DNA from: Thermoplasmata archaeon
Lineage (GTDB): Archaea > Thermoplasmatota > Thermoplasmata > Lutacidiplasmatales > UBA184
NCBI GenBank assembly: GCA_022750335.1
Contig: JAKIVX010000010.1
Location: 1-56,458 of the forward strand
Direction of reading: 5' to 3'
DNA: 56,458 nucleotides
Both the position numbers and the translations under genes were made by a program. Shown here piece after piece: positions 7,996-11,109 of this stretch; position 1 is the first letter of the stretch; every line of letters begins with the position of its first letter. The notes beneath the pieces were generated by a model. It did no database searches, was not told where the DNA came from, and was given only the letters and a program-made list of their open reading frames with translations.

Positions 7996-9300
7996 ATGAC
8001 GAACCGGGCGCGCGCGGAATGGAACCCGCTCCGAGAGGTCCTCATCCACCGACCGGGCATCGAGATGTTCTTCGGGCTGATGGAGCCGTACTCGTTCCTG
8101 TACGAGCGCGCGTTCAGCATCGATGAAGCGGTCTACGAACACACCCTGCTCGAACACGCCCTCACGGAGGCCGGCATCACCGTCCATCGGCTGAAGCGAT
8201 TCGCCGTCGAGGTCAACCAGCTCCATCCCGAGCTCGCCGACCGCGTGCGGCGGCACGCCGACCGTCTCGTCCAGTACACCGGTCCCAAGGAAATGGTCGC
8301 CCGTTCCCGGGCCGCCCTCCGGCGCAACCTCCGGGAGTTCGACGCCGAGACGCTCTTCAACATCCTGCTGCTCCGGCCCTCGGTCCGGTTGGAACGGCAC
8401 CCCGGCGAGCGGGTGATCTTGCCGAAGGTCGAGCTCGATTGCCCGCTCGCCAACCTCTACTTCATGCGGGACCAGCAGGCCCTGAGCGCCCGCGGGTTCA
8501 TCCTCGGGCGGATGTCCAAGCCCCAGCGGCGCAACGAGCCCTTCCTCACGGGAACGCTCCTTCGTTCCTCCGGTGCGACCATCGCGGGGGAGGTGCGAGC
8601 GCCCGGCACGTTCGAGGGAGGTGACTTCATGCCCCTCGGTCGTTTCGCGCTGCTCGGCACGGGCGACCGAACCAACGCGAGCGGGGTCCGCCAGATCCTG
8701 GCCATGGATCTGGGGGTCGACGAAGTAGGGGTCGTCCACCAACCTTCGCACCCGGCGATCCCCGACGACGCTCCGGACCCGATGATCGACATGCATCTCG
8801 ATACCTACCTCAACGTCGCCGGCGATGGGATCGCGGTGGGCTCCGACGTCCTCCTGCGTGCGGCCCGCGTCGACGTCTACCGACGGATGGGCGGTGGGCG
8901 CCTCGTCCGGACCCCGAAGACCCGGTCGCTGAGCGAGTACCTGGCCGAAAAGAAATTCGAGGTTCTCCCGCTCTCTTCGCTCGAGCAGATGAGCTACGCC
9001 TCGAACTTCCTGTGCGTGAAGGACCGCAGGATCATCGCGGTCGAGGTGGAGCAGGAACTCGATGGGGTGCTGGCGGGCCTTGCGCTGGCCGCGCGGCGCA
9101 ACCCCTACCGGTACGGCGCGCTCCTGGCCTTGGCCCAACGCGAACGCCGCCAACTCCGCGAGGGCGGGGGATTCTTCCCGCACACGGCAGCCCTTCGGGA
9201 CCGCGGCATCGACGTCGTCCCCTTGAGTCTCCGGGCGATCACGGGGGGGTACGGTGGGGCCCACTGCATGACGTGCGTCCTCCGTCGCTCCGCCACGTGA
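7996..9300 (+). CDS. arcA: Arginine deiminase
   Basis: Hydrolyses L-arginine to citrulline and ammonia, the first step of the arginine deiminase pathway. The 434-residue length fits the family, and the guanidino-modifying signature residues are present: D in NLYFMRDQQ, E in TFEGGDFMP, H in DMHLDTYLNV and the nucleophilic C424 in GGAHCMTC close to the C-terminus. The stop overlaps the carbamate kinase start as GTGA (9297-9300). The permease is directly upstream. An ornithine carbamoyltransferase, needed to link the two enzymes, is not in the window and may be supplied by the biosynthetic gene elsewhere. Confidence 0.92.
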   Translation: MTNRARAEWNPLREVLIHRPGIEMFFGLMEPYSFLYERAFSIDEAVYEHTLLEHALTEAGITVHRLKRFAVEVNQLHPELADRVRRHADRLVQYTGPKEMVARSRAALRRNLREFDAETLFNILLLRPSVRLERHPGERVILPKVELDCPLANLYFMRDQQALSARGFILGRMSKPQRRNEPFLTGTLLRSSGATIAGEVRAPGTFEGGDFMPLGRFALLGTGDRTNASGVRQILAMDLGVDEVGVVHQPSHPAIPDDAPDPMIDMHLDTYLNVAGDGIAVGSDVLLRAARVDVYRRMGGGRLVRTPKTRSLSEYLAEKKFEVLPLSSLEQMSYASNFLCVKDRRIIAVEVEQELDGVLAGLALAARRNPYRYGALLALAQRERRQLREGGGFFPHTAALRDRGIDVVPLSLRAITGGYGGAHCMTCVLRRSAT

Positions 9301-10316
9301 CCGCTCCCCGGTCGACCGCGCGGCATCGGACGGGTCGCTCCGGCCGAGTTCTCCTCGCCCTCGGCGGGAACGCGATCCAACGGGCCCATGACCACGGCAC
9401 CTGGAGGGAGGCCGTTCGACAGATGCGGCGGACCGCCTCGGCACTCGCGGCCGTCGCGACCCCCGACCGGGAGCTCGTGGTGACCCACGGGAACGGCCCT
9501 CAGGTGGGTAGTCTCCTACGAGAAGCGGAACTGGGAGCGGGCGAGGTTCCGGCCCCGCCGCTCTACGTGCTGGGCGCGGAGACCCAGGGGCAGCTCGGCT
9601 TCCTCATCGCCCAAGAACTAGGCGGGGCCCTCAGGCGCGCCCGCTCCGATCGGTCGGTCGTTCCTATCGTGAGTCGGATGGTGGTGTCGGCTCGAGATCC
9701 GGCCTTCCGCTCTCCCTCAAAACCGGTCGGACGCTTTTACTCGGCCTCCGAGGCGCGGAAGCTGCATCGGACCCTCGGATGGACCCTGCGCGAGGACCGG
9801 CAGCGGGGCGGTTGGCGCCGCCTCGTACCGTCGCCCCATCCGATCCGATGGCTCGAGGGAGACGCGGTGCGCTCGATGTTGAACGCTGGCTTCGGCGCCC
9901 GGTGCGTCTTCGTGGTCACCGGCGGAGGAGGGATCCCCGTCGTCCGACGTCGGGGCCGATGGGAGGGAGTGGACGCAGTCATCGACAAGGATCTTGCGGC
10001 CGCACTAGTCGGCCGTCACCTGGGGGTCGACACGCTGGCGATCGTGACGGACGTGCCCGGGGCCGCCCTGGGGTACGGGACCGACGATCTCCGGTGGTTG
10101 GGGCAGGTCAGTCTCGAGGAGCTGACCCGATCCTGGAGGCGGGGTGAATTCGAGGAGGGTAGCATGGGTCCCAAAGTGGAGGCCGGCCTTCGCTTCCTCC
10201 GGTCCGGGGGGCGAAGGTTCCTCATCACCGACATTCGTTCGCTCCCCGAGGCGTTGGCGGGTCGCGCCGGTACCCGGGTCGAAAACGGCCGCCCATCGGT
10301 CGATTACTCCCACTGA
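9297..10316 (+). CDS. arcC: Carbamate kinase
   Basis: Transfers phosphate from carbamoyl phosphate to ADP, giving ATP, ammonia and CO2: the energy-yielding last step of arginine deiminase catabolism. Family motifs include VLLALGGNAIQ at the N-terminus, THGNGPQVGSLL, VDAVIDKDLAAALVG, LAIVTDVPGA and GSMGPKVEAGLRF near the C-terminus. The GTG at 9297 overlaps the arcA stop, giving 339 residues, slightly over the usual 310 because of a basic N-terminal extension before VLLALGG. Some archaeal carbamate kinase-like enzymes work in reverse as carbamoyl phosphate synthetases, but the arcA pairing supports the catabolic role here. Confidence 0.92.
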   Translation: MTAPRSTARHRTGRSGRVLLALGGNAIQRAHDHGTWREAVRQMRRTASALAAVATPDRELVVTHGNGPQVGSLLREAELGAGEVPAPPLYVLGAETQGQLGFLIAQELGGALRRARSDRSVVPIVSRMVVSARDPAFRSPSKPVGRFYSASEARKLHRTLGWTLREDRQRGGWRRLVPSPHPIRWLEGDAVRSMLNAGFGARCVFVVTGGGGIPVVRRRGRWEGVDAVIDKDLAAALVGRHLGVDTLAIVTDVPGAALGYGTDDLRWLGQVSLEELTRSWRRGEFEEGSMGPKVEAGLRFLRSGGRRFLITDIRSLPEALAGRAGTRVENGRPSVDYSH

Positions 10317-10910: not shown

Positions 10911-11014
10911 GCCGCCGTAGCTCAGCGGTAGAGCGATCGGCTGTTAACCGAAAGGTCAGCGGTTCGAAAGGAAACGGGGCATTCCCCCGGCTCCCCAAAC
11001 TCCGCTCGGCGGCG
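10911..11014 (+). tRNA. tRNA-Asn (GTT) with a predicted 32-nt intron in the T-loop
   Basis: Acceptor strands GCCGCCG (10911-10917) and CGGCGGC (11007-11013) pair perfectly, with discriminator G at 11014 and no encoded CCA. The D-arm is GCTC/GAGC and the anticodon loop CTGTTAA carries GTT at 10943-10945. The T-stem strands AGCGG (10958-10962) and CCGCT (11002-11006) pair perfectly but are separated by 39 bases instead of seven. Removing 10969-11000 restores the consensus loop TTCGAAT, so exons are 10911-10968 and 11001-11014. The junction folds as a relaxed bulge-helix-bulge: 5-bp T-stem, a 4-bp helix TTCG/CCAA with one C-C mismatch, 3-nt bulges AA|A and AC|T, and an inner GGA/TCC helix. This places the intron between positions 59 and 60. 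Confidence 0.85.
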
Positions 11015-11033: not shown

Positions 11034-11109
11034 GGGCCCGTAGCTTAGTCCGGCCTAGAGCGTCCGGCTCATAACCGGTCGATCGGCGGTTCAAATCCGT
11101 CCGGGCCCA
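11034..11109 (+). tRNA. tRNA with CAT anticodon (elongator Met or Ile2)
   Basis: A complete cloverleaf: acceptor GGGCCCG/CGGGCCC, D-arm GCTT/GAGC, anticodon stem closing on loop CTCATAA, T-arm GGCGG TTCAAAT CCGTC, discriminator A, no encoded CCA. The G1-C72 pair argues against initiator tRNA, which in archaea starts A1-U72. Whether the CAT is read as Met or, after agmatidine modification, as Ile2 cannot be settled here; the GGGCCCG acceptor makes Ile2 plausible. It lies 19 bases after tRNA-Asn on the same strand. Confidence 0.9.

Follow-up and report, generated by a model that had tools for sequence, protein, structure and literature searches.

Small tRNA introns outside the anticodon loop, removed at bulge-helix-bulge (BHB) or relaxed BHB junctions, have been described for the Thermoproteales (Pyrobaculum, Thermofilum) and other Thermoproteota, and the permuted tRNAs of Thermofilum pendens are joined at position 59/60, in the T-loop (PMC3218864). 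The subject of this study is a tRNA-Asn(GTT) gene interrupted at this position in a Thermoplasmata archaeon (contig JAKIVX010000010.1 of GenBank assembly GCA_022750335.1, positions 1 to 56,458; these 56,458 nucleotides are called the window below). Its intron resembles those of Thermoproteota in size and in lying outside the anticodon loop. However, the hosts of the latter have two-gene (alpha-beta)2 endonucleases, whereas a single fused alpha' gene without the loop known as CSL is predicted here, and the introns reported here concentrate at 59/60.

Other comparable systems differ in one respect or another. Introns at non-canonical positions were reported from three thermophilic euryarchaeal methanogens (PMC3218864), and tRNAs with multiple introns from Methanopyrus and Methanothermobacter, the former of which is listed with an (alpha-beta)2 enzyme (PMC4033280). 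These precedents outside position 37/38 are presented in the cited texts as exceptions, while nine and thirteen such introns were found here in single genomes of another phylum. The Asgard Atabeyarchaeia and Freyarchaeia, archaea of wetland soil, have many non-canonical tRNA introns as well, but they belong to another phylum and carry introns in 92-95% of their tRNA genes according to PMC11291895. Korarchaeum cryptofilum combines a single-gene, alpha2-type endonuclease with non-canonical introns and is called the only such archaeon in PMC4033280; however, its enzyme is described there with a specific loop, which is lacking in the enzyme found here.

The specificity of the endonuclease is central to this comparison. 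Reviews state that the alpha4 and alpha2-type euryarchaeal enzymes cut canonical BHBs only, and associate non-canonical introns with other enzyme types or with CSL- or ASL-like loops (PMC4033280, PMC4090602). Likewise, a structure paper of 2025 relates broad specificity to ASL and CSL and states that the Archaeoglobus enzyme is restricted to canonical BHBs (PMC12397907). A relaxed BHB should nevertheless be distinguished from a canonical one that lies at an unusual position. In Ferroplasma acidarmanus, EndA, a single-gene homodimer from Thermoplasmatota, cuts a minimal BHB at 30 C; in fission yeast it excises an introduced BHB intron, whose 5' bulge has 2 nucleotides, from the 7-nucleotide hairpin loop of an mRNA, i.e., it acts on a hairpin-loop BHB outside tRNA (PMC8707768). 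It has 288 residues compared with about 354 in the enzyme found here, and the results section of that paper mentions no natural T-loop introns. Introns at 59/60 are a known kind, with a few euryarchaeal precedents for non-canonical positions, and the initial annotation described below had likewise assigned them to archaea already known. Such introns in Thermoplasmatota, or their accumulation beside a loop-less alpha' enzyme, were not found reported in the open-access literature consulted, which is a weak negative as most subscription papers fell outside this scope.

Structure of the interrupted tRNA-Asn gene

The tRNA-Asn(GTT) gene occupies 104 nucleotides (window 10911-11014). An initial annotation, made from the letters of the window, had proposed a 32-nucleotide intron at 59/60 (10969-11000), and its anticodon, insert and coordinates agree to the base with those obtained here. 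The acceptor stem (GCCGCCG/CGGCGGC) and the T-stem (AGCGG/CCGCT) form 12 of 12 pairs only without these 32 nucleotides, and their removal leaves the 7-nucleotide T-loop TTCGAAT, with a predicted exon junction (10968/11001) of GGTTCGAA^TCCGCTCGG. ARAGORN recognised no tRNA in the unspliced locus and called tRNA-Asn(gtt) once 10969-11000 had been taken out, so that both pairing and gene prediction confirmed the proposal. The same call was returned for two adjacent cut registers; ARAGORN therefore cannot fix the exact cut, and the register rests on the BHB. The Rfam tRNA model gave a forced, partial fit covering 10911-10964 only, and the Rfam scan detected no group I or group II ribozyme family at gathering score in the window; 32 nucleotides are also too short for a self-splicing intron.

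The suggestion in the initial annotation that standard scans would miss the gene held for ARAGORN and, in part, for the Rfam model. It may not extend to tRNAscan-SE 2, which seeks non-canonical introns by default (PMC8450103). This program was used in the paper on Lutacidiplasmatales, where tRNAs for all 20 amino acids are reported in genome AcS3-62 (PMC9287336).

The T-stem, the first four bases of the T-loop and the 3' end of the intron would fold into a BHB (Table 1). The arrangement recognised in archaea, a 4-bp helix between two 3-nucleotide bulges or a relaxed form of it, is found at the exon-intron junctions of the window's gene, and the relaxed BHB with one mismatch that had been claimed for them corresponds to a C-C mismatch in UUCG x CCAA. 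The register was examined in 97 distinct tRNAs with T-loop inserts, which comprise several isotypes and a few sequences from other phyla and are related, hence not independent. At the proposed register, the central helix had on average 3.27 of 4 pairs, compared with at most 2.45 at slid registers; all four pairs were formed in 36 sequences, three in 51 and two in 10. The first three pairs of the intron stem were formed in 257 of 291 cells (slid registers, at most 157). As BHB pairing peaks at the proposed cut register, that register is supported. Moreover, exon base 57 covaried with its intron partner (G-C 54, G-U 1, A-U 10, A-C 3; Fisher p ~1e-8), in a test that used 68 of the 97 sequences and left out 29 with other combinations, mostly A with G (24). 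Perfect central helices occur in some other inserts of the window's own genome, e.g., those of tRNA-Gln and tRNA-Gly (CGAA).

Table 1. Positions in the window of the tRNA-Asn gene, the elements of its predicted BHB and the adjacent tRNA gene
Feature	Coordinates	Strand	Basis or remark
tRNA-Asn exon 1, positions 1-59	10911..10968	+	Sequence; anticodon GTT at 10943-10945
32-nucleotide intron at position 59/60 (T-loop)	10969..11000	+	Removal restores the cloverleaf
tRNA-Asn exon 2 (position 60, T-stem 3' strand, acceptor 3' strand, discriminator G)	11001..11014	+	Sequence
BHB outer helix h (T-stem 5' strand)	10958..10962, paired with 11002-11006	+	5/5 pairs, no change across 34 sequences
BHB central helix, exon side TTCG	10963..10966, paired with 10995-10998 (CCAA)	+	One C-C mismatch
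5' bulge AAA, predicted cut 10968/10969	10967..10969	+	3-nucleotide bulge register
Intron hairpin h'	10970..10994 (10970-10972 with 10992-10994, 10975-10979 with 10985-10989)	+	Pairing, covariation
3' bulge ACT, predicted cut 11000/11001	10999..11001	+	3-nucleotide bulge register
Intact tRNA-Met(CAT)	11034..11109	+	Directly 3' of tRNA-Asn; order kept in G029 and G037

Positions 27 and 43, the first to face each other in the anticodon stem (window 10936-10952), form an A-A mismatch, as they do in many relatives. Two open reading frames on the + strand precede the tRNA genes; they overlap in coordinates (window 7996-9300 and 9012-10316), match PF02274 (arginine deiminase, E 8e-35) and PF00696 (amino acid kinase, E 1e-18), and could possibly belong to an arginine-degradation cluster.

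Conservation and distribution of T-loop introns

The window's tRNA-Asn was used as the query in 61 genomes, 37 of which, the window's genome (G000) included, belong to the same genus. Thirty Asn loci of the genus were read; the matches in G020 and G028 and the second matches in G014 and G022 were left out, and G017, G023, G030, G033 and G035 gave no match covering the gene body. The 59/60 insert was present in 29 of the 30 loci, the window's included, and the thirtieth (G004) ends at a contig edge. Insert lengths were 31-35 nucleotides, with 32 in 23 of the 29. Exons and introns differed strongly among the 20 distinct relatives with 32-nucleotide inserts: the exons shared on average 97.4% identity with the window (minimum 93.1%), the introns 51.1% (range 34-78%). 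In a gapless alignment of 34 sequences, 9 of the 10 pairs of the intron hairpin showed changes on both sides. The covariation score of the hairpin was 0.319 (0.042-0.113 when slid, 0.110 when shuffled), and 72 cells had changed on both sides, compared with 21.5 in shuffles. The signal was weakest for further pair types, of which there were 27 against 23.4 when shuffled; 8 of 500 shuffles reached that number. The intron stem is kept by compensatory changes.

An identical 104-nucleotide tRNA-Asn gene is present in isolate AcS1-45 (contig JAKIVW010000008). Both AcS1-45 and SubAcS10-22 are listed in Table 1 of the paper defining Ca. Lutacidiplasmatales within Thermoplasmatota, the main text of which does not contain the term 'intron' (PMC9287336). 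The host, a soil archaeon, belongs to Thermoplasmatota, which the initial annotation had left conditional, and stands close to Ca. Lutacidiplasmatales.

The Asn intron is one case of a larger pattern and not isolated, as at least nine 59/60 introns occur in the window's genome. Nine of 36 tRNA matches in this genome had a 59/60 insert (Asn, Arg-TCT, Ala-GGC, Glu-CTC, Gln-CTG, Ser-GGA, Arg-TCG, Gly-TCC and Asp-GTC; anticodons are those called by ARAGORN or identified by eye in the loop). In G029, a relative whose genome is 100% complete, 13 of 42 matches had one, namely the same nine and Ser-GCT, Ser-CGA, Lys-TTT and His-GTG, and ARAGORN called just three of these 13 genes. A third genome, G033, had the insert in 10 of the 16 matches read (of 38), all within the set of G029, with Ser-CGA uninterrupted. 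D-loop inserts were recognised by eye in the window's genome in tRNA-iMet (C25:20288-20390) and Arg-GCG (C6:151-219 and upstream bases). The pairing of the former, CAGG/CCTG with AAA bulges, looks by eye like a perfect BHB. A tRNA-Arg-GCG with a D-loop insert was also present in G029 and is not among the 13 counted there.

Outside the genus, 20 tRNA-Asn-like stretches were obtained from other genera of the order and class, of which 10 were tRNA-Asn and the rest other tRNAs. None of these 10 tRNA-Asn had a T-loop insert, and four (G037, G039, G053, G055) had one in the anticodon loop, at a place that agrees with 37/38. In this set of genomes, the Asn intron seems confined to the window's family. 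The order of tRNA-Asn and tRNA-Met is found on contig C10 of G029 and, in another family, at C66:86735-86907 of G037. In the sister family (G037, G039) the tRNA-Asn intron lies in the anticodon loop, and the copy in G037 stands beside the same tRNA-Met; this would mean that the intron position changed between families at one locus.

T-loop inserts in other tRNAs extend further. G037, of the same order, had them in Ala-CGC and Arg-CCG and showed a Lys-TTT with inserts in both the D- and the T-loop (by eye; 16 stretches and the Asn locus were read of 44 matches). Such a tRNA-Lys-TTT with two introns was found, mostly by eye, in G029, G033, G037, G047 and G043, which represent several families of the class. 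In more distant members of the class, the T-loop insert of tRNA-Lys-CTT was present in G047, G049 and G058 and absent in G038, G044, G050, G052 and G059; two of 47 matches were read in G047, and one weak match and one tRNA-Lys of 45 in G044. No T-loop insert was seen in the six weak matches read in G051 (these and the Asn of 45 matches). T-loop introns in tRNA-Lys therefore look older or recurrent, as far as these partial reads suggest. T-loop inserts of 15-76 nucleotides were also found in tRNA-Asn of Asgard, Heimdallarchaeota, Hodarchaeum, Bathyarchaeota and Aenigmatarchaeota records, by a pattern scan of named genomes that requires A or G after TTCRAA and thus selects inserts and gives no frequency (80 of 100 stretches listed).

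The possibility that introns had recently been copied from one tRNA to another within a genome was also considered, and the nine introns of G000 and thirteen of G029 gave no signal of it: the mean local intron score between different isotypes was 12.7 within a genome and 12.5 between genomes, compared with 16.1 for orthologous isotypes.

Splicing enzymes and alternative explanations

All 25 genomes checked, the 100%-complete G029 included, have a single endonuclease gene, EndA, whose open frame holds both PF01974 matches; in G051 the second match falls under the family cut-off. The protein, of about 354 residues, passes the NCBIfam endA model, and its catalytic Y292, H300 and K331 were invariant in six aligned sequences. 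The predicted model (mean pLDDT 88.9) has its best solved folds in 5x89, the fused subunits of Methanopyrus, and 2gjw of Archaeoglobus. Between YG and LSL, no insertion of the CSL/ASL kind, which places a lysine beside the active site, was present relative to Archaeoglobus in G000, nor in the 24 of 25 proteins that were extracted (all but that of G038), which share one segment length. In profile alignments of this segment, the chimeric Archaeoglobus enzyme of broad specificity, 3p1y, shows 10 extra residues, which are the graft, and 4fz2 of ARMAN-2 shows four. A separate second endonuclease subunit was not found in any of the 25 genomes by PF01974, the sole model used (G000 being 72% and G029 100% complete). 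To judge from these sequences, the endonuclease is of the fused alpha' type and loop-less, with two tRNA_int_endo domains and one complete catalytic triad, and is presumably a homodimer. The RNA ligase candidate RtcB was present in all six genomes checked.

We consider it very probable that this is a working tRNA-Asn gene whose T-loop intron is removed by protein-dependent splicing. The fused alpha'-type EndA would cut after 10968 and after 11000 of the transcript, and RtcB would join the exons into a tRNA with the normal TTCGAAT T-loop; the intron would be inherited within the genus, as part of a lineage-wide load of T-loop and D-loop introns. A second, intact tRNA-Asn(GTT), which the initial annotation had named as evidence against its proposal, was found neither among the 36 tRNA matches (E up to 10) of the window's genome nor among the 42 of G029.

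Several points weigh against this explanation. The Asn orthologues are non-independent observations, the window's genome is only 72% complete, and two same-genus drafts, G014 and G022, have two Asn matches each; the second copy in G022 covers the query in full together with its insert, and that in G014 breaks off at a contig end. In 24 of the 39 sequences with A at exon base 57, the intron partner is a non-pairing G, and the window's own central helix contains the C-C mismatch. This mismatch is, however, common to many relatives, as the central C-G pair was unformed in 26 of 34 aligned sequences. Finally, the minimum-energy fold of the unspliced RNA is not a cloverleaf with a BHB; since the spliced form also fails to give a cloverleaf, minimum-energy folding says little.

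The incompleteness of the draft would be in favour of a disrupted pseudogene or an assembly error, with a normal tRNA-Asn elsewhere in the genome, because a second copy could be missing from it. However, the same site is interrupted in 29 of 30 loci of the genus, with near-constant exons and compensating introns, and the complete relative G029 has this sole Asn gene among its 42 tRNA matches. On these grounds the pseudogene or assembly error was rejected as very improbable. It is even harder to believe that the insert stays unspliced and that the mature tRNA retains a 39-nucleotide T-loop arm. Odd T arms are known in some organelle tRNAs, but the contrast between exons and intron, the preserved BHB, the joint changes of base 57 and its intron partner, and the presence of EndA and RtcB genes argue for removal.

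Removal could also be the work of a broad-specificity (alpha-beta)2 or epsilon2 endonuclease that was missed, as non-canonical introns are associated in the literature with enzymes bearing CSL or ASL (PMC12397907, PMC4033280) and further subunits were sought with PF01974 alone. This is improbable as well, given that the two PF01974 matches share an open frame in each of the 25 genomes, one of them 100% complete, and that the YG-LSL segment has one length in the 24 of 25 proteins extracted; in 3p1y and 4fz2, graft and loop do show as extra residues. The sequences favour an ordinary fused alpha'-type EndA acting on nearly canonical BHBs at an unusual position. Thus, of the two possibilities raised in the initial annotation, a broad-specificity endonuclease or a relaxed substrate, the former found no support in an enzyme predicted to be of the fused alpha' type without CSL or ASL, and the latter stood in part, the BHB being slightly relaxed and nearly canonical.

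Implications for endonuclease specificity

The simplest reading of these sequences would be that the loop-less enzyme recognises a BHB wherever it is located and tolerates small departures from it. If the BHB is recognised at any location, the position of an intron alone is a poor guide to the type of enzyme. It is somewhat more probable than its opposite that in this Thermoplasmatota lineage from soil introns at exactly 59/60 interrupt about a quarter to a third of the tRNA genes and are removed by the loop-less alpha' EndA, that nearly canonical BHB geometry at any loop would be enough, and that the CSL and ASL loops would not be needed for a rich non-canonical repertoire. In the two genomes that were surveyed completely, nine and thirteen 59/60 introns occur beside a loop-less single-gene enzyme, so that the rule that such enzymes cut canonical BHBs only becomes directly testable in this lineage.

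There are also consequences for annotation and for the tRNA itself. With ARAGORN calling so few of the 59/60-intron genes of G029 and the Rfam model fitting only in part, an essential tRNA such as tRNA-Asn can look absent in an annotation. The T-arm is a common integration site of archaeal elements. If the above explanation is true, an intron at 59/60, which divides the T-arm and pairs with bases 54-57 of the T-loop, may for that reason also postpone modification of the loop until it has been spliced out, or prevent integration.
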